DNA of 64,000 nucleotides from assembly GCA_016935315.1 (NCBI GenBank), contig JAFGRD010000047.1:1-64000 (forward strand), written 5' to 3'. The notes below the pieces were generated by a model. That model was given only the letters and a program-made list of their open reading frames with translations. It did no database searches and was not told the DNA's origin. This document shows, piece after piece, positions 2,742-20,251 of the stretch. Within the stretch, counting starts at the first letter, position 1; each line of letters opens with the position of its first letter. The position numbers and the translations under genes are program-made. Origin of the DNA: Pirellulales bacterium. GTDB taxonomy: Bacteria; Planctomycetota; Planctomycetia; Pirellulales; Thermoguttaceae.

Positions 2742-4678
2742 ATGACCATTCGGTTCAAACTGACGATGACCACCATTGCGGTAATCCTGGTGGCTAATTC
2801 CCTGGTTTCGCTCCTGGGGGTTGGCTATCTGGGGCGGGTCTGGCTGGAGGAAGTCCAGACCCGGGTCCGTTTGGATCTCAACTCGGCTCGGGCCGCGTAC
2901 GACAGCCACATCGACAGGATCGACTGGTTCCTTCGGGCCGTGTCTTTGGATCGCAACCTGGCGTCGGCCCTGGAGGGTGATGACCGCGAGCAGCTCAGCA
3001 CGCTGCTGGAGAATGTCCACGGCGAACAGAAGATGGACTTCGTTTCCGTGCTGGACGCCGGGGGGAGGGTGATCTACCGGGCGCGCAACCCGGACCGGGC
3101 GGGCGACGATCTTTCGGAGAATCCGCTGATCGCCAGCGTGCTCCGCAAGGGCGAGCCGGCGTTGGGCACGATCGTCCTGTCGCAGGCGACCCTGGCCAAG
3201 GAAGGCGAGGATCTGGCCACCCGTGCCCGGTTCCAGCTACTGCCCACCCCGGCGGCCCGGCCGACCGACGAGAAGTTCCGCACGGACGGCATGGTTGTCG
3301 CCGCGGCGGTCCCCATCGTCGGCTCCCAGGGCCGATTGTTGGGGATCCTCTACGGGGGCGACTTGTTGAACCGCCGTTTCGAGATCGTCGACCTGATCAA
3401 AGAAGAGGTGTTTCCGGAACAGCGTTTCGCGGGCAAAGACATCGGCACGGTGACGATTTTCCAGGGCGACCTGCGGATCTCGACCAACGTGACTACCGTC
3501 GAGGGCTTGCCCGCCGTCGGCACCCGGCTCAGCCAGGCCGTCTACGACGAGGTGCTGATCCGGGGCGACACGTGGGCCGCGCCGGCCTTCGTGGTCAACG
3601 ATTGGTACATCACCGCCTACGAACCGATTCGGGATCCCGACAGCCGCATCATCGGGGCTTTGTACGTCGGGCTGTCGCAGACGCCGTTTATCCACCAGCG
3701 GAACGTGGTGGCCGGCGTGTTCGTCGGTCTGGTCGGCCTCGCGACGGTCTCCAGCTTGGTGCTGCTGTTTTTCGTGACCATGCTCGTGTTGCGCCCGGTC
3801 GGTCACATCACGGCCATGTCGCAGAAGGTGATCGACGGGGATCTTTCGGCGCGCGTGGGTATCCGGCCACCGGGCGAGATGGGCGTGCTCTGCAAGGTCA
3901 TCGACGCCATGGCCGAAGCGGTGAACGAGCGCGAAAAGCAACTGAAGCTGATCACCCGCCAGCAAATCGGGCAGAGCGAGAAGCTCGCCTCGATCGGGCG
4001 GCTGGCGGCGGGCGTGGCCCACGAAATCAACAACCCGCTGACCGGCGTGCTCACCTTCGCCCACTTGTTGCGGGAAAAGGAGAACCTGGACCAGCAGGAC
4101 AAGCAGGACGTGGACTTGATCATCCACGAGACGACCCGGGCCAGCGAGATCGTGCGCGGGCTGCTCGATTTTGCCCGGGAACGGCCGGCGGTGAAGGAGG
4201 CGATCAACGTCAACGACATCATCCGCCGCACCATCCGTTTGTTGGGAAACCAGAAGGCGTTCCAGCAGATCATCATCGTCGAGGACATCGACGAGGAGCT
4301 GCCCGAGGTCGACGGCGACGTGAATCAGCTTCAGCAGGTGCTGTTGAATCTGGCCCTGAACGCCTGCGAGGCCATGCCCGGCGGCGGCACGCTGCTGATC
4401 AGCACGTCCTCCGACGACGACAAGGTGCTGGTCACGGTGACCGACACCGGCTGCGGCATCCAGAGCAAGCACCTGGACCGGGTCTTCGAGCCGTTTTTCA
4501 GCACCAAGCCCGTGGGCAAGGGAACCGGTTTGGGCCTGAGCGTCAGCTACGGCATCATCCAGCAGCACGGGGGCTCGCTGGAAGTCGAGAGCGAAGAGGG
4601 CAAGGGCGCCACGTTTACCATCGTCTTGCCCTTGGTCAAAGACAAGCCGCCCGACCGTCACGACGAAAGGTTGGACCA

Positions 4679-4682
<4 letters not shown>
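2742..4682 (+). CDS. Membrane sensor histidine kinase (NtrB/ZraS type)
   Basis: 646 residues from ATG 2742. Order: short cytoplasmic N-terminus, TM helix about 7-29, large extracytoplasmic Cache-like sensor about 30-320 ([17 protein letters not shown]), TM helix about 321-350, HAMP linker about 350-400, dimerisation/phosphoacceptor helix with His427 in [14 protein letters not shown], and an HATPase domain with N box [14 protein letters not shown]1 DTGCGI, and [19 protein letters not shown]. It autophosphorylates on His427 and should pass phosphate to the sigma-54 activator whose GTG start overlaps its stop codon by four bases. The signal sensed is unknown; Cache domains usually bind small extracellular ligands. 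Confidence 0.93.
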
Positions 4683-6118
<1,436 letters not shown>

Positions 6119-6347: not shown

Positions 6348-6362
6348 TGGCACGCGTATTGC
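6348..6362 (+). promoter_or_regulatory. Sigma-54 promoter of the hdr operon
   Basis: TTGGCACGCGTATTGCA (6347-6363) matches the -24/-12 consensus TGGCAC-N5-TTGC without mismatch, with GG and GC separated by exactly ten bases. The predicted start of transcription is about 6374, some 40 bp before the ATG at 6412. It sits between the NtrC-type activator gene and the six-gene operon ending in hdrA. In the 293-bp gap it is the dominant signal. Confidence 0.85.
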
Positions 6363-6411
6363 ATTTGGGCACCTACGCCGGGTTTTGTCCAACGTATCAA
6401 GGCGCCCAGTC

Positions 6412-6948
6412 ATGTGCCACCAGTCACGCGAGAACGACGCGAAGCCAGAGAAATGCGGCCACCGGCAATTCGGCCTCCGCACGCTCCTGCTCTGGATCGC
6501 CATGGCCGCAGTCCTCTGTGGAATCCTGCGGGCCTGCCGGCTCGACGCGTGGGCCTTCGCCACTTTGGCGTGTGGGGCACTTACCCTGGTTGTGGCGCAG
6601 ATCTTCTGCGGTGCCCGGGTGGCCGGTTGGCTATCGAGCGTGGCGGGAGAATTCGCCGGGGGTTTTGTCTACTACCTCAGCCTGGCGGGTGTCGAGACGC
6701 CCCGCGTTGAGACGGGAAAACTGCTGCTGCTGGTCGCCGCCGGCGGCCTGCTGGGATATGCGTTCTCGCTGCTGGTCGGAGTCGTCGCCTGGGCGATCCG
6801 TTGGGTCGATTTGCCGGGCGCGACCCGACGGCGACGAATTCGGCCGGGATCGGTGGTCGCACTTGTAGGGTCAACCATCCGACGGTGGGCGGCCTGGACA
6901 CGGATCGATGGAACGAACGGACCTACGGTTCGCCCCGCGGGGAGCTAA
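6412..6948 (+). CDS. Small membrane protein, first gene of the hdr operon
   Basis: 178 residues from ATG 6412. A soluble Lys/Glu/Arg start leads into GLRTLLLWIAMAAVLCGIL, a motif common at the first membrane helix of short planctomycete proteins of unknown role. Hydrophobic segments near 28-46, 50-70, 78-95 and 108-135 suggest three or four membrane helices; the C-terminus is basic (RRRRIR). It lies directly behind the sigma-54 promoter and 3 bp ahead of the receiver/GcvH-like gene. Function unknown; membrane anchoring or sensing for the operon is only a guess. Confidence 0.75.
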   Translation: MCHQSRENDAKPEKCGHRQFGLRTLLLWIAMAAVLCGILRACRLDAWAFATLACGALTLVVAQIFCGARVAGWLSSVAGEFAGGFVYYLSLAGVETPRVETGKLLLLVAAGGLLGYAFSLLVGVVAWAIRWVDLPGATRRRRIRPGSVVALVGSTIRRWAAWTRIDGTNGPTVRPAGS

Positions 6949-6951
6949 GTC

Positions 6952-8544
6952 ATGTGCGCCTGTCCAAAACTGCTGGTTGTCGATGACGAAATCGTCATCT
7001 GCCAGGCCTGCCGACGGGTCTTCACCCGCCAGGGGTTCGAGGTGGAAGAGTGCACCGACGCCCGAGACGGGCTCGCCCGGGCCTGCCAGAACGACTACGC
7101 CGCAATCCTCCTGGACATCAAGATGCCGGAACTGGACGGGATCGAGTTTCTCGAATCGCTGCGCCAGAAGAAGCCGGAGATTCCGGTGATGATCATGACC
7201 GGGTATCCGAGCATCCCCAACGCGGCGGCGGTGGTTCGCCTGGGGGCTTCGGACTATGTAACCAAGCCGTTCACGCCCGAGGAGATCACCCTTTCGGTGC
7301 AGAGAATGCTGGCCCACCGTGACCCCGATTTCCCGCTGCCGGCCGAGTCGGCCCTGTCGAAGTCGCTGCGGGGGACGGCGGAGGAGGCGTTTTTGTTCAT
7401 GGACGAATCGTGGGTCCAGTTGGAGACGGACGGCTCGGCGCGAACGGGGGCCGTATTGGTACAGCCGCCCTATACGACCGTTGAGGAGGTACGACTTCCC
7501 GAGGTTGGTGACGTCGTCTACCAGGGGTTGCCCATGGCGGCCGTGACGGTAGCCGCCAGATCGCCGGTGATGATCCCTGCACCGGTCTCCGGAGTGGTGG
7601 TGGCCGCGAACGGTCTGTTGAGCTGCGAGCCGTCGGCCCTGTTGAGCGAGCCGTGCGGAAAGGGTTGGATCGCCTGCGTGTGCACCACTCGCGTGGAAGA
7701 AGAGTTGGATCGCTGCCGGTCCCGGGAAGTCCTGCTGGTCAACGCGGACCCAAGGTCCGCCCTGGAACAGTCCCAGAAGCTGCAGGCCTTGGGATGCGAA
7801 GTCCACGTGGTCACGGAAGAAGAGGCGTTGGTGCCGGCGACGCTGGAGTCGGGTTGCCGGCTGGCGGTGGTCGACGCGGACACGCTTGCCGAGCGCGGCC
7901 CGCAGTGGGTGGCTCGCATCAACCACGCCGCACCGTCGCTGAAAGTCGTGGTCACGGCGTCATCGGCCGCGGCGGGTTGGGAAACGGCCTATCGCCAGCA
8001 GCGCATCTTCTACTACAGCGTGGAGCCGTTTGCCGACGGCGAAATGGTGGCGGTGCTCGACGCGGTGTTTCGCCCCCGGCCGCCGGCGAGTCCTCCACAC
8101 GCGGAGCCCCATGTGCCCGCGGAGCCGCTGGGTCGCATCCAGATTACCAACCGCAACGGTCACAAGATACGTCTGCTGGCCTCCCCCGGCCTGCTTTCGC
8201 GTCACGAAGGGCTGGGCCGGGACCTGCTGCAGCACCTTGCCAACCGGTCGTTCCCGATCGTCACCACGCCGGGCGACGCGAAGATCGACCCCGAAAACGT
8301 ATTGAAGGCGGCCGGGGGATGCCATCGCGTGATGGTCCTGCTGGCCGGCGAGACGGGTCGCCTGCCGGGCAGTCTCGTTCGCGACACCAAGGCCGAGTAC
8401 GTCACGGCGGCGGGCGAAAGCGCCGGCAGGGTAACCACCCTGGTCGTACAGCCCGAAGCGAACCGCGGCCGGATGGCGTGCTTCGATCGGCGTACCACGG
8501 CGGCGTTGGTCGAGCACATCGTGCAGGAGATGGCGTCTTACTAA
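6952..8544 (+). CDS. Response regulator receiver fused to a GcvH-like domain
   Basis: 530 residues. Receiver domain 5-122 with Asp11/Asp12, phosphoacceptor Asp55, Thr83 and Lys105. A GcvH (lipoyl carrier)-like domain spans about 155-240: VRLPEVGDVVYQG, then SPVMIPAPVSGVVV, and PCGKGWIACV. Aligning by the PVSG turn puts Arg203 where GcvH carries its lipoylated lysine, so the domain probably cannot be lipoylated in the usual way. A second receiver-like segment (about 258-365, VLLVNADPRS) and a C-terminal region (about 385-530) follow, the latter unassigned. There is no DNA-binding domain. Embedded between a membrane protein and hdrCBA; a role in controlling or docking to the Hdr complex is inference. 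Confidence 0.85.
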   Translation: MCACPKLLVVDDEIVICQACRRVFTRQGFEVEECTDARDGLARACQNDYAAILLDIKMPELDGIEFLESLRQKKPEIPVMIMTGYPSIPNAAAVVRLGASDYVTKPFTPEEITLSVQRMLAHRDPDFPLPAESALSKSLRGTAEEAFLFMDESWVQLETDGSARTGAVLVQPPYTTVEEVRLPEVGDVVYQGLPMAAVTVAARSPVMIPAPVSGVVVAANGLLSCEPSALLSEPCGKGWIACVCTTRVEEELDRCRSREVLLVNADPRSALEQSQKLQALGCEVHVVTEEEALVPATLESGCRLAVVDADTLAERGPQWVARINHAAPSLKVVVTASSAAAGWETAYRQQRIFYYSVEPFADGEMVAVLDAVFRPRPPASPPHAEPHVPAEPLGRIQITNRNGHKIRLLASPGLLSRHEGLGRDLLQHLANRSFPIVTTPGDAKIDPENVLKAAGGCHRVMVLLAGETGRLPGSLVRDTKAEYVTAAGESAGRVTTLVVQPEANRGRMACFDRRTTAALVEHIVQEMASY

Positions 8545-8580: not shown

Positions 8581-9135
8581 ATGTCCCATACGGTTGCCAC
8601 GTACGACCACACGTCGGCCCCGAAGAAAGGGCCGCTGAGCAAGGTCTTCGTCGACTTCCTGGGATTCGTCCTGCCTTCGGCTCGTGCCCGGCAGGGACGT
8701 GCCCGGGTGGAAGTCCACGGGGAGCGCGCCGTCACGCTGGCCGACTGCTCGGAAGCGATCCGGCTCGACCCCCAGGATCCCGACGCCTATCGGCGCCGCG
8801 GAGTTGTTCACCTCCGAGAGGGCGGCTACCAACGAGAGAGCGGCTACCTCGCGGTGCGCAGACAGCGCTGTTTCCAGGACGCCATCGCCGATTTCACCAC
8901 GGCGATCCGGCTGAATCCGGAAGACGCCGGCACGTACTTGTGGCGCGGCACGGCACACAAGGTCCTCGGCAGGCTGGAGCGAGCGGCCGAAGATTTTTCC
9001 GCAGCGATCCGTCTGAACCCCCAAGGATTGACGGCCTACGTCGAGCGAAGCGACGTGTATCAGAGACAAGGCGAGACCGCCAAAGCCGAGGCAGATCGCG
9101 CCAGGGTAACTCAACTGGCCTCGGCGTTCAACTAG
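8581..9135 (+). CDS. TPR-repeat protein
   Basis: 184 residues. Tetratricopeptide repeats are visible: AVTLADCSEAIRLDPQDPDA, AIADFTTAIRLNPEDAGTYL and AAEDFSAAIRLNPQGLTAYV, each followed by a second helix. TPRs are protein-docking scaffolds. The first 50 residues are not repeat-like and there is no signal peptide, so it is cytoplasmic. It sits 36 bp after the receiver/GcvH-like gene and 51 bp before hdrC, both on the same strand, so it probably assembles or regulates the Hdr proteins (inference). Confidence 0.8.
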   Translation: MSHTVATYDHTSAPKKGPLSKVFVDFLGFVLPSARARQGRARVEVHGERAVTLADCSEAIRLDPQDPDAYRRRGVVHLREGGYQRESGYLAVRRQRCFQDAIADFTTAIRLNPEDAGTYLWRGTAHKVLGRLERAAEDFSAAIRLNPQGLTAYVERSDVYQRQGETAKAEADRARVTQLASAFN

Positions 9136-9186: not shown

Positions 9187-9759
9187 ATGATCACCATTCC
9201 AGCCGACAAGCGCGGCTTAACATTCCTGGATGACGTCGTGGCGGAAACGCCGGGCGGCGAACGGCTGGTCCACTGCATGCAGTGTGGCAGTTGCGGCGGC
9301 TCCTGCCCCAACGGCCCCGACATGGACCACACGCCGCGGACACTGTTCGCCCTGATCGAGGCCGGCCAGCGAGACCGCGTGCTGAAGTCGAACACCATGT
9401 GGCGCTGCGTGTCGTGCTATTCGTGCACCAGCCGCTGCCCGCAGAATATCCCGATTACCGACGTGATGTACGCTCTGAAGCGGATTTCGCTCCGCGAGGG
9501 CGTGGCGAACGGATCGGACGCCCCCGCCCTGGCCCGCACCTTCACCGGTTTGCTGGACAAGTACGGCCGCAGCTTCGAGTTCGGTCTGGCCAGCCGCTAC
9601 TACCTGTTCAACAAGCCGCTGAGCATGTTGAAGATGGGTCCGCTGGGACTCTCCATGTTCACCAAGGGGCGGATGTCGCTGATACCGACGAAGATTCGCC
9701 AACTGGGCCAGCTTCAAGCCATCATCAAGAAAGCGAAAGAAATGGGAGGTGAAGCATGA
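9187..9759 (+). CDS. hdrC: HdrC-like [4Fe-4S] subunit of heterodisulfide reductase
   Basis: 190 residues from ATG 9187, preceded by GGAGG at 9176-9180. Two [4Fe-4S] ferredoxin motifs, HCMQCGSCGGSCPNG and CVSCYSCTSRCPQNIP, then a helical tail, the usual layout and size of HdrC (about 185-195 residues). HdrC wires electrons between the flavin subunit HdrA and the catalytic HdrB. Its stop overlaps the hdrB start by four bases (ATGA). In non-methanogens the disulfide or thiol substrate is generally unknown. Confidence 0.9.
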   Translation: MITIPADKRGLTFLDDVVAETPGGERLVHCMQCGSCGGSCPNGPDMDHTPRTLFALIEAGQRDRVLKSNTMWRCVSCYSCTSRCPQNIPITDVMYALKRISLREGVANGSDAPALARTFTGLLDKYGRSFEFGLASRYYLFNKPLSMLKMGPLGLSMFTKGRMSLIPTKIRQLGQLQAIIKKAKEMGGEA

Positions 9760-10640
9760 AATACGCCTATTACCCGGGATGCTCGCTCGAGTGCAGCAGT
9801 GCCGCCTACGACATCTCCGTCCGCGAGGTAGCCGATGTGCTGCAGCTTCACCTGCGGGAAGTGGACGACTGGAACTGCTGCGGGGCCACCGAGTACTTCA
9901 GCCAGGACGAGTTGACCGCTTGTTCGGTGATCGCGCGGAACTTAGCGCTGGTCGACCCGCAGCTCGATCAGTTGGTCGCCCCCTGTGCCGCCTGCTACTT
10001 GAATCTGAAGAAGACGGATCACCTGATGGCCGAAGAGCCCGCGTTCGGCGCCAAGGTGAACGAGGCGCTGGCGGCCGGCGGCTTGCACTACGACGCGGGT
10101 CGCGTTCGGGTGCGGCATCTGCTGGACGTGGTCTACACGGACATCGGCGAGACGGCCATCCGCGACAAGGTGGTCCGGCCGCTGACCGGCCTGAAGGTCG
10201 CTCCGTACTACGGCTGCCAGGTCGTCCGCCCGCTGAATAGCTTCGACAACCCCGAGCACCCCACGCGGCTCGATGAGCTGTTCACCTGGCTGGGAGCCGA
10301 CGTCGTCAACTATCCCCTGAAGTCGCATTGCTGCGGCGGCCACATGACCCAGATCAGCGAGGCGCAGGCGTTCGAGTTGATCCGGCGGCTGCTGCAGTGT
10401 GCGGTGGAGAACGGCGCCGACATGATTCTCTGCATGTGTCCCATGTGTCAGTTGAATCTGGACGCCTACCAGCGGCAGGTGAACAACTACTTCAGCACGA
10501 GCTACAACATCCCGATCGTGTTTTTCACCCAAATGCTGGGGCTGGCCTTCGGGATCGAGCCCGGCAAGCTGGGAATTGGAAAAGAGATCATTCCGATCGA
10601 GCCGGTCCTGCGGGCCAAGCTGAGCGGAGCTACGGCGTAA
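9756..10640 (+). CDS. hdrB: HdrB-like catalytic subunit (two CCG domains)
   Basis: 294 residues. The first CCG motif is Cys9, Cys41-Cys42 and Cys77-x2-Cys80 (NCCG, PCAAC); the second uses YYGCQVV, SHCCGGH and CMCPMC. In methanogen HdrB these ten cysteines bind two noncubane [4Fe-4S] clusters that cleave a disulfide, so both clusters should be present and the protein is probably active. Cytoplasmic. Translationally coupled to hdrC. Which disulfide it acts on cannot be read from the sequence; planctomycetes lack the coenzyme M/B pair as far as is known. Confidence 0.92.
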   Translation: MKYAYYPGCSLECSSAAYDISVREVADVLQLHLREVDDWNCCGATEYFSQDELTACSVIARNLALVDPQLDQLVAPCAACYLNLKKTDHLMAEEPAFGAKVNEALAAGGLHYDAGRVRVRHLLDVVYTDIGETAIRDKVVRPLTGLKVAPYYGCQVVRPLNSFDNPEHPTRLDELFTWLGADVVNYPLKSHCCGGHMTQISEAQAFELIRRLLQCAVENGADMILCMCPMCQLNLDAYQRQVNNYFSTSYNIPIVFFTQMLGLAFGIEPGKLGIGKEIIPIEPVLRAKLSGATA

Positions 10641-10710: not shown

Positions 10711-12744
10711 ATGCCTGAAAAGGTCGGAATCTACGTATGCCATTGCGGCAGCAACATCGCCGGAACGATCGACGTCGAAGAGGTCGCGAAGTGGGCCGGC
10801 GAGAACATCGACGACGTAGCCGTGGCACGCGACTACAAGTTCATGTGCTCTTCGCTCGGTCAGAAGATGATCGAGGAAGACATTCAGCAGAAGGGGCTGA
10901 ACCGGGTGGTCGTGGCCGCCTGCTCTCCCAGCCTGCACGAGAAGACGTTCCGCCGCGCCTGCCAAAACGCCGGAATGAACCCCTACCTTTTCCAGATGGC
11001 CAACATCCGCGAGCAGATCTCCTGGGTCTGCCAGGACAAGGAGGTGGGTACCCAGAAGGCCAAGGCGCTGGTCTGCGCCGCGGCCGAGCGCGTCAAGCGC
11101 CACAAGCCGCTGGAGCCCATGAAAGTGAAGGTCAACCCGGCCACGCTGGTGGTCGGCGGCGGTATCGCCGGCCTGCAGGCCACGTTGGAGCTGGCCGACG
11201 CCGGCTATCACGTCTATCTGGTCGAGCGCGAGCCGAGCATCGGCGGCCATATGGCCCAGTTCGACAAAACCTTCCCCACGCTGGACTGCTCGGCGTGCAT
11301 CCTCACGCCGAGGATGTCCGAGGTCGGTCAGCACGAGAACGTCACGCTGCTGACCTATTCCGAGCTGGAAGAGGTGAGCGGTTCGGTGGGCGAGTTCAAG
11401 GTGAAGGTCCGCAAGAAGGCCCGCTACGTGAAGGAAGACCTCTGCACCGGCTGCGGCATCTGCGTGTCGAAGTGCCCCAAGAAAGTGGTCGACCATGACT
11501 TCGAGGCAGGGCTGGGCCACCGCCCGGCCATCTACACGCCCTTCCCGCAGGCCGTCCCCCGCATCCCGGTCATCGACACCGACTCGTGCATCTGGTTCGA
11601 GCGGGGGAAGTGCCGGGCGTGCGAGAAGGTCTGCCCCACCAACGCCATCGACTACGAGCAGGAAGACGAGATCGTCGAGCTCGAAGTGGGCAACATCATC
11701 CTGGCCACCGGTTGGAAGCTGTTCGACTGCGAGAAGCTCCCGCAATACGGCCACGGCCGGTTGCCGAACGTCTACACCAGCATGGAGTTCGAGCGGCTCT
11801 GTAACGCGGCCGGCCCCACCGGCGGCAAAATCGTGTTGCGCGACGGCAAGACCGAGCCCGAATCGGTCGCGATCATCCACTGCGTCGGCAGCCGCGATGC
11901 CAGACACAACTCCTACTGCTCGAGCGTCTGCTGCATGGCCGCCATGAAGTTCGGGCACCTGGTCCTGGAGAAGACCAAGGCCGACGTCTACTCCTGTTAC
12001 ATCGACCTGCGCTGCAATATGAAGGACTACGAGGAATTCTACCAGCGGCTGTTGGGCGAGGGCATGCATTTCGTCCGCGGCAAGGTGGCCGAGGTGACCG
12101 AGGCCAGCCGGACGCCGTTCGAGAACGGCAAACTCGTGGTGCAGCTCGAAGATACGCTGTTGGGACGACAGCGCCGCATCCCGGTCGATATGGTGATCCT
12201 GATGGGCGCCCTGGAGCCGCAGGCCGATTCCAAGGAGATGGGCCTGAAGTGCGGCCTCTCTTGCGGCACCTCCGGCTGGTTCACCGAGCGCCACCCGAAG
12301 CTCGACCCGGTGGCCACGATGACCGACGGCGTGTTTGTGGCCGGCGCCTGCCAAGGCCCCAAAGACATTCCCGCCTCGGTGGCTCAGGGTGCGGCGGCCG
12401 CCGCCCGCGTGCAAAGCATGATCGCCAGGGGAGTCGTCTCGATCGAGCCGATCGTGGCTTCGATCGACGAGGATCGCTGCTCGGGCTGTCGGGTGTGCAA
12501 CAACGTGTGCCCCTACGGCGCGATCGACTTCAACGCGGAGAAAGAGGTCAGCGTCATCAACACGGCGCTGTGCAAAGGCTGCGGCACGTGCGTGGCGGCC
12601 TGCCCGGCGAACGCTATCTCCGGGGCCCACTTCACCGACGAACAGGTTTTCGCCGAGATCGAAGGCGTCCTCTGGGACGCCGGCCAGGACGAAGGCCAGG
12701 CACCCGAGGAACCGCAGCGCGAGGCCGACTCCGTCGTGGCGTAG
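10711..12744 (+). CDS. hdrA: HdrA-like FAD and iron-sulfur subunit
   Basis: 677 residues, near the usual 650-670. N-terminal HdrA domain with VGIYVCHCGSNIAGTID; FAD-binding Rossmann motif GGGIAGLQATLELADAG near 150; the family signature TLDCSACILTPRM; ferredoxin motifs starting at Cys245 (CTGCGICVSKCP), Cys293/CRACEKVCP, Cys590 (CSGCRVCNNVCP) and Cys621 (CKGCGTCVAACP). HdrA is the flavin site where electron bifurcation or confurcation with ferredoxin takes place. No MvhD, FlxABCD or hydrogenase gene is next to it, so its other electron partner must be encoded elsewhere or it works with ferredoxin alone. Confidence 0.94.
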   Translation: MPEKVGIYVCHCGSNIAGTIDVEEVAKWAGENIDDVAVARDYKFMCSSLGQKMIEEDIQQKGLNRVVVAACSPSLHEKTFRRACQNAGMNPYLFQMANIREQISWVCQDKEVGTQKAKALVCAAAERVKRHKPLEPMKVKVNPATLVVGGGIAGLQATLELADAGYHVYLVEREPSIGGHMAQFDKTFPTLDCSACILTPRMSEVGQHENVTLLTYSELEEVSGSVGEFKVKVRKKARYVKEDLCTGCGICVSKCPKKVVDHDFEAGLGHRPAIYTPFPQAVPRIPVIDTDSCIWFERGKCRACEKVCPTNAIDYEQEDEIVELEVGNIILATGWKLFDCEKLPQYGHGRLPNVYTSMEFERLCNAAGPTGGKIVLRDGKTEPESVAIIHCVGSRDARHNSYCSSVCCMAAMKFGHLVLEKTKADVYSCYIDLRCNMKDYEEFYQRLLGEGMHFVRGKVAEVTEASRTPFENGKLVVQLEDTLLGRQRRIPVDMVILMGALEPQADSKEMGLKCGLSCGTSGWFTERHPKLDPVATMTDGVFVAGACQGPKDIPASVAQGAAAAARVQSMIARGVVSIEPIVASIDEDRCSGCRVCNNVCPYGAIDFNAEKEVSVINTALCKGCGTCVAACPANAISGAHFTDEQVFAEIEGVLWDAGQDEGQAPEEPQREADSVVA

Positions 12745-17755: not shown

Positions 17756-19104
17756 GCATTGCTGCCAGACGCACCACCCGCCGACGCACATTCGCTCGCG
17801 GCGTCCACCCGGACGAACAGAAGCAGCTTGCCGCCGGGTGCCCCATCGAGGCTCTCCCGACGCCGCCTGAGGTCCGCATTGCGTTGCTGCAACACCTGGG
17901 CGCCCCTTGCCAGGCAACGGTCGAGCCGCGTTCGGAGGTGGCCGTCGGCGACGTGGTCGGCCGGGCCGAGGCCTTTGTCTCCGCGCCGGTTCACGCCAGC
18001 GTCGCCGGCACCGTCGCCCGAGCGGCCATGGCCACGCTGCCCAACGGGCGCCACGTGGCGGTGGTGCCGATCCGGGCGGCCGAACAGCAGCCGCTGGCCG
18101 GCGAGCCATTGATCGAGGACGTTTTCGGCGGCGACTGGCCGCTCGAGCGGCTCGATCGCTACGAGCCGCTGCAGATTGTCGAGGCGGCCCGGGCGGCCGG
18201 GCTGGTCGGCCAAGGCGGCGCCGCGTTCCCCACGCACGTGAAGCTCTCGCCCAACCAACAGAAGCCCATTGCCACGGTGCTGGTCAACGGCTGCGAGTGC
18301 GAGCCTTACCTGGCGGCCGACTATCGCCTGATGCTCGAAGCCCCGGCTCCGGTGCTTGCCGGGGCGCTGTTGGCGGGACGGGCCGCCGGGGCCGCGGAAG
18401 TCATCATCGGCATCGAAGACAACAAGCCCGAGGCCCTCGAAACACTGCGCACCGCCGCCCGACGAACGCCCGTGGTGGTCCAGCCGCTGAAGACGAAGTA
18501 TCCCCAAGGCGGCGAGAAGCAGTTGATCGCCGCCGTCTTGAACAAGGTGGTGCCCGGCGGGGGGCTGCCGCTGGACATCGGCGTGGTGGTGATCAACATC
18601 GGCACGGCGGCGGCCCTAGCGCGGGCCGTCTTGCGCGGCAAACCGTTGACCCATCGCGTGCTGACCGTCTCGGGCGGCGGCATCCGGCGGCCGAGGAATC
18701 TTCTCGTGCCGATCGGTGCAAGCTACCGCGAGTTGATTGAGGCTTGCGGCGGGCTGAAGGAGGACGCGGCGCGGGTGGTGGCCGGCGGTCCGATGATGGG
18801 CTTCACCGTCGGCGGGCTCGACGTGCCGGTCACCAAGGGGACCAGCGGCGTCACCGTGCTCTCACGCGAGGAGATCGCCAAGGCGGCCGAGACCCCGTGC
18901 GTGCGCTGCGGCCGCTGTGTGGAGGTCTGTCCGATGGGTCTGGTGCCTACCAAGCTGGCCCTGGCCACCCGGGTCCGCAACGCGGCGCTGGCCCAACGCT
19001 ACCACGTGGCGGCCTGCATCGAGTGCGGGTGTTGTGCTTACGCGTGTCCGGCCAAGCTGCCGCTGGTTCAACTGATCCGCTTGGGCAAGATCATGACGAG
19101 TTGA
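17752..19104 (+). CDS. rnfC: Rnf complex subunit RnfC
   Basis: 450 residues from ATG 17752. N-terminal RGVHPDEQK segment, an SLBB/barrel-sandwich region, the NADH/FMN-binding GGGGLPLDIGVVVINIG stretch, the signature LVNGCECEPYLAADYRLM, and two [4Fe-4S] motifs starting at Cys383 (CVRCGRCVEVCP) and Cys422 (CIECGCCAYACP). RnfC is the peripheral cytoplasmic subunit that exchanges electrons with NAD. First recognised subunit of rnfCDGEAB, the usual acetogen-like order. Confidence 0.95.
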   Translation: MSIAARRTTRRRTFARGVHPDEQKQLAAGCPIEALPTPPEVRIALLQHLGAPCQATVEPRSEVAVGDVVGRAEAFVSAPVHASVAGTVARAAMATLPNGRHVAVVPIRAAEQQPLAGEPLIEDVFGGDWPLERLDRYEPLQIVEAARAAGLVGQGGAAFPTHVKLSPNQQKPIATVLVNGCECEPYLAADYRLMLEAPAPVLAGALLAGRAAGAAEVIIGIEDNKPEALETLRTAARRTPVVVQPLKTKYPQGGEKQLIAAVLNKVVPGGGLPLDIGVVVINIGTAAALARAVLRGKPLTHRVLTVSGGGIRRPRNLLVPIGASYRELIEACGGLKEDAARVVAGGPMMGFTVGGLDVPVTKGTSGVTVLSREEIAKAAETPCVRCGRCVEVCPMGLVPTKLALATRVRNAALAQRYHVAACIECGCCAYACPAKLPLVQLIRLGKIMTS

Positions 19105-19180
19105 GAGCGTGTTTTGAGGTTCGAGTCAGGTCGCTAGGAAAGCCAACCGAAGCGCCGCGTTGCCGGAAAGATCGAGATCC

Positions 19181-20251
19181 ATGGCGGAGACACAGCCTCC
19201 CACGGCATCGGACACCCCCTCCGCGTCGGCGGCGCCGGCCGTGGCGATTCGGGTGGCGCCTTCGCCGCATCTGTGCGACGCCCATCTCACCACGCGCGGG
19301 ATGATGATCGACGTGCTGGTCGGTCTGGCGCCGGTGCTGGTGATGGCCGTGCTCGTGTTCCACTGGTACGCGGTCGTGCAGGTGGGGCTCTGCGTGCTGA
19401 GCTGTCTGGTTGCCGAAGTGGTCTTCACCCGGATCCGGCGGAAGCCGATCCCCATCGGCGATTACTCGGCCGCGGTCACCGGTGTGATCCTGGGGCTTTC
19501 ACTCCCCTGGGGCGCCCCCTGGTACATCGGCGTGCTGGGTTCCGTCGTGGCGATTGGGCTGGGCAAGGTCGTGTTCGGCGGCCTGGGCTTCAATATCTTC
19601 AACCCGGCCATGGTGGGCCGGGCCTTCGTGATGCTCAGCTTCGCCAAGGAACTGGGGGCGTCGGCCTACGTCGTCACCCGCTCGAATCTCGAAGTGCTCA
19701 CCCAGGCCACGCCGCTGACCATCGCCAAGCAGTTCGCGGCCGACCTGGCCGCCGGCAAGGTCGTTGCCTTCGAGCAGCCGGTGCAACTGGAGCATGCCAA
19801 GGCGTTTTGGCCGCTGTTTATCGGGCAGGTGAACGGCTCGCCGGGCGAGACCAGCGCCCTGGCGCTGCTGGTCGGGGGAATCTATCTGTGTATCCGGCGG
19901 GCGGCTGCCTGGCAAATCCCCGCCGGCATCTTCCTGACCACCGTGGCCTTCGCCGCCGCCGCCCATGGAAGCATGCTCACACCGTTCAACGCCCTGCATC
20001 ATCTGATCAGCGGGTCGGTGCTGTTCGGCGCGTTCTTCATCGCCACCGATCCGGTGACCAGTCCGGTGACCAGTACCGGCAAGTTTCTGTTCGGGCTGGG
20101 CATCGGATTGCTGGTGGTTCTGGTGCGCGTGTTCAGCGGCTATCCCGAAGGTGTGATGTTCGCCGTGCTCGTGATGAACGCCGTGGTGCCGTTGATCAAC
20201 CGTTGGACGATCCCCCGCCCCTTGGGCGGGCCGGTGCCGAGGAAAGACTGA
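19181..20251 (+). CDS. rnfD: Rnf complex subunit RnfD
   Basis: 356 residues from ATG 19181 (TTG 19160 is an alternative). An Ala/Pro-rich start leads to SPHLCDAHLTTRGMMIDVLV, typical of RnfD, then eight to ten membrane helices. The covalent FMN site is expected at the threonine of VLTQATPLTIA. Also typical are GGLGFNIFNPAMVGRAFV and FIATDPVTSPVT. RnfD forms the ion-translocating membrane core with RnfA, E and G. 76 bp after rnfC. Confidence 0.95.
   Translation: MAETQPPTASDTPSASAAPAVAIRVAPSPHLCDAHLTTRGMMIDVLVGLAPVLVMAVLVFHWYAVVQVGLCVLSCLVAEVVFTRIRRKPIPIGDYSAAVTGVILGLSLPWGAPWYIGVLGSVVAIGLGKVVFGGLGFNIFNPAMVGRAFVMLSFAKELGASAYVVTRSNLEVLTQATPLTIAKQFAADLAAGKVVAFEQPVQLEHAKAFWPLFIGQVNGSPGETSALALLVGGIYLCIRRAAAWQIPAGIFLTTVAFAAAAHGSMLTPFNALHHLISGSVLFGAFFIATDPVTSPVTSTGKFLFGLGIGLLVVLVRVFSGYPEGVMFAVLVMNAVVPLINRWTIPRPLGGPVPRKD

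Follow-up and report, generated by a model that had tools for sequence, protein, structure and literature searches.

A response regulator with GcvH-like and probable HybD-like domains recurs in operons for electron-bifurcating enzymes

In a 64,000-nucleotide stretch of planctomycete DNA (the window), a gene cluster encoding HdrABC-like proteins includes an atypical response regulator that lacks a DNA-binding domain and carries, behind an intact receiver, a GcvH-like barrel, a pseudo-receiver and a domain with the probable fold of the HybD/HycI maturation proteases. In our judgment there is an even chance that this protein is the third component of a histidine kinase/NtrC system and controls the HdrABC-type bifurcating enzyme by docking. 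Atypical response regulators are already known; neither this combination of domains nor its tie to electron-bifurcating operons was found in the open-access papers searched. We know of no two-component regulator that acts on electron-bifurcating enzymes at the protein level, and a search of the open-access literature for one likewise found none.

Results

Gene order and features of the window

The gene order is kinase, NtrC-type activator, sigma-54 promoter, 187-aa ORF, regulator, TPR protein, HdrC, HdrB and HdrA, with the genes from kinase to HdrA closely spaced on one strand:

2742–4682, plus strand: histidine kinase with an extracytoplasmic sCache_3 sensor, HAMP, HisKA and HATPase domains (Pfam)
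4690–6118, plus strand: NtrC-type sigma-54 activator with receiver, AAA+ and Fis-type HTH domains (translation)
6348–6363, plus strand: predicted sigma-54 (-24/-12) promoter, a perfect match, TGGCACGCGTATTGCA (motif scan)
6385–6948, plus strand: hydrophobic ORF of 187 aa between promoter and regulator (ORF list)
6952–8544, plus strand: response regulator of 530 aa, with receiver, GcvH-like, pseudo-receiver and HybD-like domains (ORF, Pfam, AlphaFold)
6952–7317, plus strand: domain 1, residues 1–122, intact receiver with D11/D12, D55, T83 and K105 (PF00072)
7390–7707, plus strand: domain 2, residues 147–252, GcvH-type barrel-sandwich without the lipoyl lysine (PF01597; Foldseek)
7558–7560, plus strand: codon of Arg203, at the lipoyl-lysine position (phmmer alignment), in a column that varies across homologues
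7717–8076, plus strand: domain 3, residues 256–375, pseudo-receiver (hhalign to domain 1)
8119–8541, plus strand: domain 4, residues 390–530, probable HybD/HycI fold with a degenerate metal site (AlphaFold, Foldseek, hhalign)
8581–9135, plus strand: TPR protein (Pfam)
9187–9759, plus strand: HdrC-like [4Fe-4S] protein, its ATG at 9187 following GGAGGAG (TIGR03290, 2.2e-23, below cut-off)
9756–10640, plus strand: HdrB-like protein with two CCG domains (TIGR03288, 5.6e-58, below cut-off; CCG, 3.4e-22)
10711–12744, plus strand: HdrA-like flavoprotein of 677 aa, closest to HdrA2 (NF040770, 1.5e-246)

The regulator ORF is a real gene, being preceded by GGGGAG and conserved at full length in relatives. 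The kinase, whose ORF opens at 2613 and whose first plausible Met is at 2742, matches sCache_3_3 (1.2e-29), HisKA (7.3e-16) and HATPase_c (1.9e-28), and a similar kinase lies upstream in many homologous loci. The start of the NtrC-type gene is approximate, its frame being ORF 3572–6118. HdrA-, HdrB- and HdrC-like proteins are predicted together, all below full-length equivalog cut-offs (820 bits against a cut-off of 1100 for the HdrA-like protein with NF040770), which bears out the hdr neighbours named in a preliminary description of this DNA. Downstream of the hdr operon, at 17779–20251, are RnfC- and RnfD-like proteins, judged from their translations.

The 187-aa ORF matched no Pfam family above cut-off and may be non-essential or not a gene. 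Both it and the TPR protein, which had been put forward as a possible partner of the regulator, were rejected as conserved partners: they occur in the window alone and are absent at related loci.

A sigma-54 promoter is conserved upstream of the regulator

The site at 6348–6363 is the sole zero-mismatch sigma-54 match in the window. Sigma-54-like sites show no enrichment over the whole window (5, against an expected 11); the case for the promoter rests on its conserved position. Of 24 loci, 21 carry a site with 10 or more of the 12 positions matched in the 300 bp before the regulator start, whereas 4.3% of random 300-bp stretches drawn from the same loci do so; at 11/12 the figures are 16 of 24 loci and 1.1%. 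The site in the window lies further upstream because the 187-aa ORF is inserted. An upstream -24/-12 promoter is predicted and an NtrC-type activator is encoded close by, so the operon has the marks of sigma-54 control.

An intact receiver and a pseudo-receiver

An AlphaFold model of the 530-aa regulator (14 homologues, mean pLDDT 80) divides into four domains, a receiver, a beta barrel and two alpha/beta domains, and this architecture is retained in homologues. VIA-align searches with the whole model returned lists filled by receivers. The preliminary description had left the C-terminal 270 residues unassigned; these now resolve into the pseudo-receiver and the HybD/HycI-like domain.

Domain 1 matches Pfam Response_reg (PF00072) at 1.4e-32 and the PhoP receiver 1mvo with a Z score of 22.0. 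It has the acid pocket D11/D12, phosphoacceptor D55, T83 and K105 of a response regulator, and D55, T83 and K105 are invariant in all 35 homologues that have a receiver, so that the earlier reading of an intact receiver with Asp55 and Lys105 stands. Domain 3 aligns with the regulator's own receiver family over 118 columns (hhalign probability 96, P 2.9e-9; shuffled columns, P 0.35). Its phosphoacceptor Asp (D308) is kept in 37 of 39 homologues, the acid pair is lost (the second Asp is Ala265), and the receiver Lys is replaced, mostly by Glu (E358; 33/39); domain 3 is thus a pseudo-receiver. A paralogue in genome G597 (L136:9205-10722, minus strand), lying between an NtrC gene and hdrCBA, has no receiver at its N-terminus, and about 22 residues are inserted at the hairpin tip of its GcvH-like domain.

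A GcvH fold whose hairpin tip has lost constraint

Domain 2 scores above the cut-off for Pfam GCV_H (PF01597; 8.5e-10, 39.0 bits, cut-off 22.2), and phmmer against solved GcvH structures finds E. coli GcvH at E 5e-9, with Arg203 opposite the lipoyl lysine of ESVKA. The modelled barrel matches E. coli GcvH in Foldseek (3a7l, probability 1.00, TM 0.76 on target; 3ab9, rmsd 1.8 Å over 116 columns) and places Arg203 in the turn between strands 194–200 and 206–210. Thus the proposal of a GcvH-like middle domain with Arg at the lipoylation site is borne out by Pfam, phmmer and structural superposition, as is that of an arm-less GcvH domain fused to a receiver beside hdr genes, at least for the window protein.

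The proposal that Arg is a meaningful replacement fared otherwise. Among 26 aligned homologues the residue-203 column holds Lys in 11 and seven other residues in the rest, Arg occurring in the window protein alone; a larger, partly redundant set of 44 reads K17, G8, S4, N4, E3, Q3, A2, D1, T1, R1. Arg203 as a conserved functional substitution is therefore ruled out by the variability of the column; the preliminary description had itself named Lys at 203 in homologues as grounds for refutation, and for the Arg proposal this has come about. The barrel core motifs (LP.xG, P.SG, GW) are kept across homologues while the tip is free to vary: the lipoyl function is lost and the fold retained, and the hairpin tip is no longer under constraint, without selection for Arg. 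Judged from its sequence, the GcvH domain of the window protein cannot be lipoylated. None of the 39 sequences tested has an E-S/T-x-K lipoylation context near the tip; where the tip has Lys, it stands in D-K-P or G-K-P and not in ESVKA, so that lipoylation of those homologues, though possible, is not suggested. No Lys was found at the tip among the examined members of the L048 group.

Two further ideas were rejected. The tip residue follows no pattern with partner enzyme (R, G, N, Q and K at Hdr loci; Asn in L036 and Lys in L038 at Hdr-Etf loci), and conserved cysteines beyond the GW motif, considered as a redox site, are absent from several homologues. A separate canonical GcvH with ESVKA is encoded in the same genome (contig C29). 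In a related planctomycete, a different protein (L023:1-1116, an L002-family locus) combines [4Fe-4S] motifs with a downstream GcvH domain in which ESAKA is retained.

Domain 4 resembles HybD/HycI maturation proteases

Modelled alone from 27 sequences (AlphaFold pLDDT 88.8), domain 4 retrieved HycI/HybD maturation proteases at all of Foldseek ranks 1–7 (best E 9e-4, probability 1.00). By hhalign, its family aligned in the right register with a profile of HycI proteins from planctomycete genomes (probability 70–71, P 4e-5; shuffled columns, P 0.51; two receiver domains, P 0.13 and 0.03). VIA-align also ranked HybD (1cfz) first, with Z 6.6, but tied with peptidyl-tRNA hydrolases and other unrelated folds; no member of the regulator's homologue set matched PF01750 (peptidase M52), and Pfam and PDB profile searches using domain 4 alone gave nothing significant. 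Given the VIA-align tie and the lack of a PF01750 match, we regard the assignment to the HybD/HycI fold, based on Foldseek and hhalign, as good rather than certain.

The metal ligands of HybD we take to be Glu16, Asp62 and His93. In domain 4 the Glu position is variable (E419; Glu in 27/39), the Asp62 position is Leu464 (Asp in no family member), and the His93 region is absent from the alignment. With two of the three ligands lost, domain 4 is most likely a dead protease. A separate canonical HycI is encoded on contig C92 of the same genome.

Homologues often head bifurcating-enzyme operons

Searches across 84,980 species genomes found 28 loci, and genome searches added others. In the window's own planctomycete family, 23 of 119 genomes encode a full-length homologue; of 294 genomes sampled across the phylum, one does, that of the window itself. 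The numbers are 6 of 195 in the phylum of L048 (labelled Deltaproteobacteria) and 1 of 192 in that of L056 (labelled Oligoflexia). All these counts passed a first-look filter and may be low. The regulator is thus known from one planctomycete family, with scattered occurrences in two further groups.

Where enough flank is available, an NtrC-type gene adjoins the regulator in most loci, including those without Hdr or Hyd genes. HdrCBA follows the regulator in ten loci (the window, L031, L035, L039, L041, L042, L046, L047, L048 and L051) and also in L131–L134 of the L048 group; Hdr-Etf follows it in L036, L038 and L049. NuoE-NuoF-HydA genes come immediately after the regulator in L053, on its strand, and are divergent in L041 and L047. 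In L056 (positions 426–2720), which comes from an Oligoflexia MAG, a NuoE/HydC-like domain is fused to the C-terminus of the complete regulator. Near the regulator, L041:1442-3493, L053:5256-7448 and L050:4019-6004 (all minus strand) encode kinases with an [FeFe]-hydrogenase large-subunit sensor domain, assigned by Pfam in L041 and L053 and by similarity in L050, which suggests hydrogen sensing in this branch.

No Hdr, Etf or Hyd gene was found in the examined flanks of L029, L033, L034, L037, L043, L044, L052, L054 and L055. The link to bifurcating enzymes is thus strong but not universal, and at these nine loci the regulator possibly acts in trans or has another role.

Other neighbours were seen as well. 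The Hdr-Etf clusters of L036 (11825–18839), L038 and L049 comprise HdrD-like, EtfB, EtfA, membrane Hdr-like and HdrA proteins, and come after both the regulator and a further kinase/NtrC pair. The L056 fusion is followed by a NuoF-GltD fusion, a group A-type [FeFe] hydrogenase, a receiver protein, a receiver-kinase and a radical SAM protein. At L043:11483-14565 and L033:2940-5186 the neighbours are CitMHS/Na-sulfate-type transporters and TauE, with no bifurcating enzymes, and at L034:13841-15830 an ApaLI-like restriction endonuclease and a DNA methylase come right after a second kinase/NtrC pair.

Discussion

A docking role, already raised in the preliminary description, is kept here as the most plausible reading, although docking itself is something we infer. 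The kinase would sense a signal, through its sCache domain in the window or an [FeFe]-hydrogenase-like domain at three related loci; the NtrC-type activator and sigma-54 would then turn on an operon that starts with the regulator and runs into hdrCBA. The regulator's intact receiver would probably be phosphorylated by the same kinase. The GcvH barrel, pseudo-receiver and HybD/HycI fold, being folds without their chemistry, would most likely serve as docking surfaces, and docking on an Hdr, HydABC or Hdr-Etf complex would adjust its activity or assembly according to phosphorylation. This phospho-controlled adaptor is the simplest reading because the receiver is intact, there is no DNA-binding domain, the other folds are inert, transcription is activator-driven and the operons encode bifurcating enzymes; it builds on what is established, namely the anatomy of the protein, the loss of active sites, the conserved promoter, the operon linkage and one NuoE/HydC-like fusion.

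That fusion, in L056, is the strongest individual clue to physical contact with an enzyme. In a published model of HydABC/Bfu, gating between the low- and mid-potential paths falls to the C1 cluster of the NuoE/HydC subunit (PMC9304861). More tentatively, the regulator could be a kinase-driven phosphoswitch that binds bifurcating enzymes and gates bifurcation through its dead docking folds, and that in a single lineage is joined straight to NuoE/HydC.

Against docking stand the nine loci whose examined flanks hold no bifurcating enzyme and the receiver-less paralogue L136, which still precedes hdrCBA. The NtrC linkage is also wider than the Hdr linkage, so that a role inside the signalling pathway fits too, and since NtrC is the more constant neighbour we treat this as the main rival: the regulator would serve as a phosphate sink or anti-activator, either rivalling NtrC for access to the kinase or binding to NtrC itself, with Hdr merely the regulated target. 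As the regulator is the first gene that NtrC turns on, directly behind a sigma-54 promoter, such an arrangement would amount to feedback, and the intact receiver and an adjacent NtrC-type gene even where Hdr and Hyd are missing agree with it. But a simple sink has no need of three further conserved domains, the NuoE-like fusion points toward the enzyme, and L136 has dispensed with its receiver while keeping the other domains and its place before hdrCBA; we judge this explanation rather unlikely.

An assembly or maturation factor, in which the receiver gates the chaperoning of Fe-S or flavin subunits by the HybD-like and GcvH-like domains, would account for a domain 4 with the fold of hydrogenase maturation proteases, for the first position in the operon and for partners that are multi-subunit Fe-S flavoenzymes. 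We think it improbable: the protease metal site is lost, HdrABC and [FeFe] HydABC have to our knowledge no need of C-terminal cleavage, and some loci have no such partner nearby. Least probable by far is a carrier like LbpA of Hdr-like sulfur oxidation or, in some species, a GcvH-type carrier that is lipoylated. A GcvH fold beside hdr genes recalls LbpA, and 11 of 26 homologues do have a tip Lys, but the others have seven different residues apart from the Arg of the window protein, an ESVKA-like context is found nowhere, and the operon holds a single hdrCBA set, unlike the sulfur-oxidation arrangement. LbpAs share a strictly conserved lysine (PMC6067878); with Arg203 in its place, an LbpA-type carrier is ruled out for the window protein.

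The regulator resembles several known systems in part. With GcvH of glycine cleavage (PF01597) it shares the barrel-sandwich fold, the LPEVG...PVSG...GW pattern and the position of the hairpin, but its domain has no lipoyl lysine and an unconserved tip, and sits inside a response regulator. LbpA is likewise a GcvH-like protein genetically linked to hdr-type genes (PMC6067878), but it stands alone and keeps its lysine, and the regulator does neither. The [NiFe]-hydrogenase maturation proteases HybD and HycI (M52, PF01750) share the predicted fold of domain 4 and align with it in register, whereas domain 4 has lost two of three metal ligands and falls outside the Pfam model. Like PleD and similar REC-pseudoREC proteins, the regulator has an intact receiver and, later in the chain, a degenerate one; unlike PleD and other atypical response regulators, its output is GcvH-like and HybD-like, not an enzyme, and its two receivers are separated by the GcvH domain. 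Its gene neighbours are electron-bifurcating HdrABC, Hdr-Etf and HydABC/Bfu enzymes; a text search of a paper on these (PMC9304861) found no mention of response regulators, histidine kinases, GcvH or maturation proteases.

Two metabolic folds, GcvH and HybD/HycI, thus seem to have been reused together as signalling modules. Because the regulator recurs in operons of three kinds (Hdr, Hdr-Etf and HydABC), is not confined to a single bacterial group and in one case is joined to the gating subunit, it offers a concrete protein to test. Electron bifurcation gives anaerobes strong reductants at no ATP cost, and the regulator, which often heads such operons in several bacterial groups, may be an unrecognised switch on this energy-saving chemistry.
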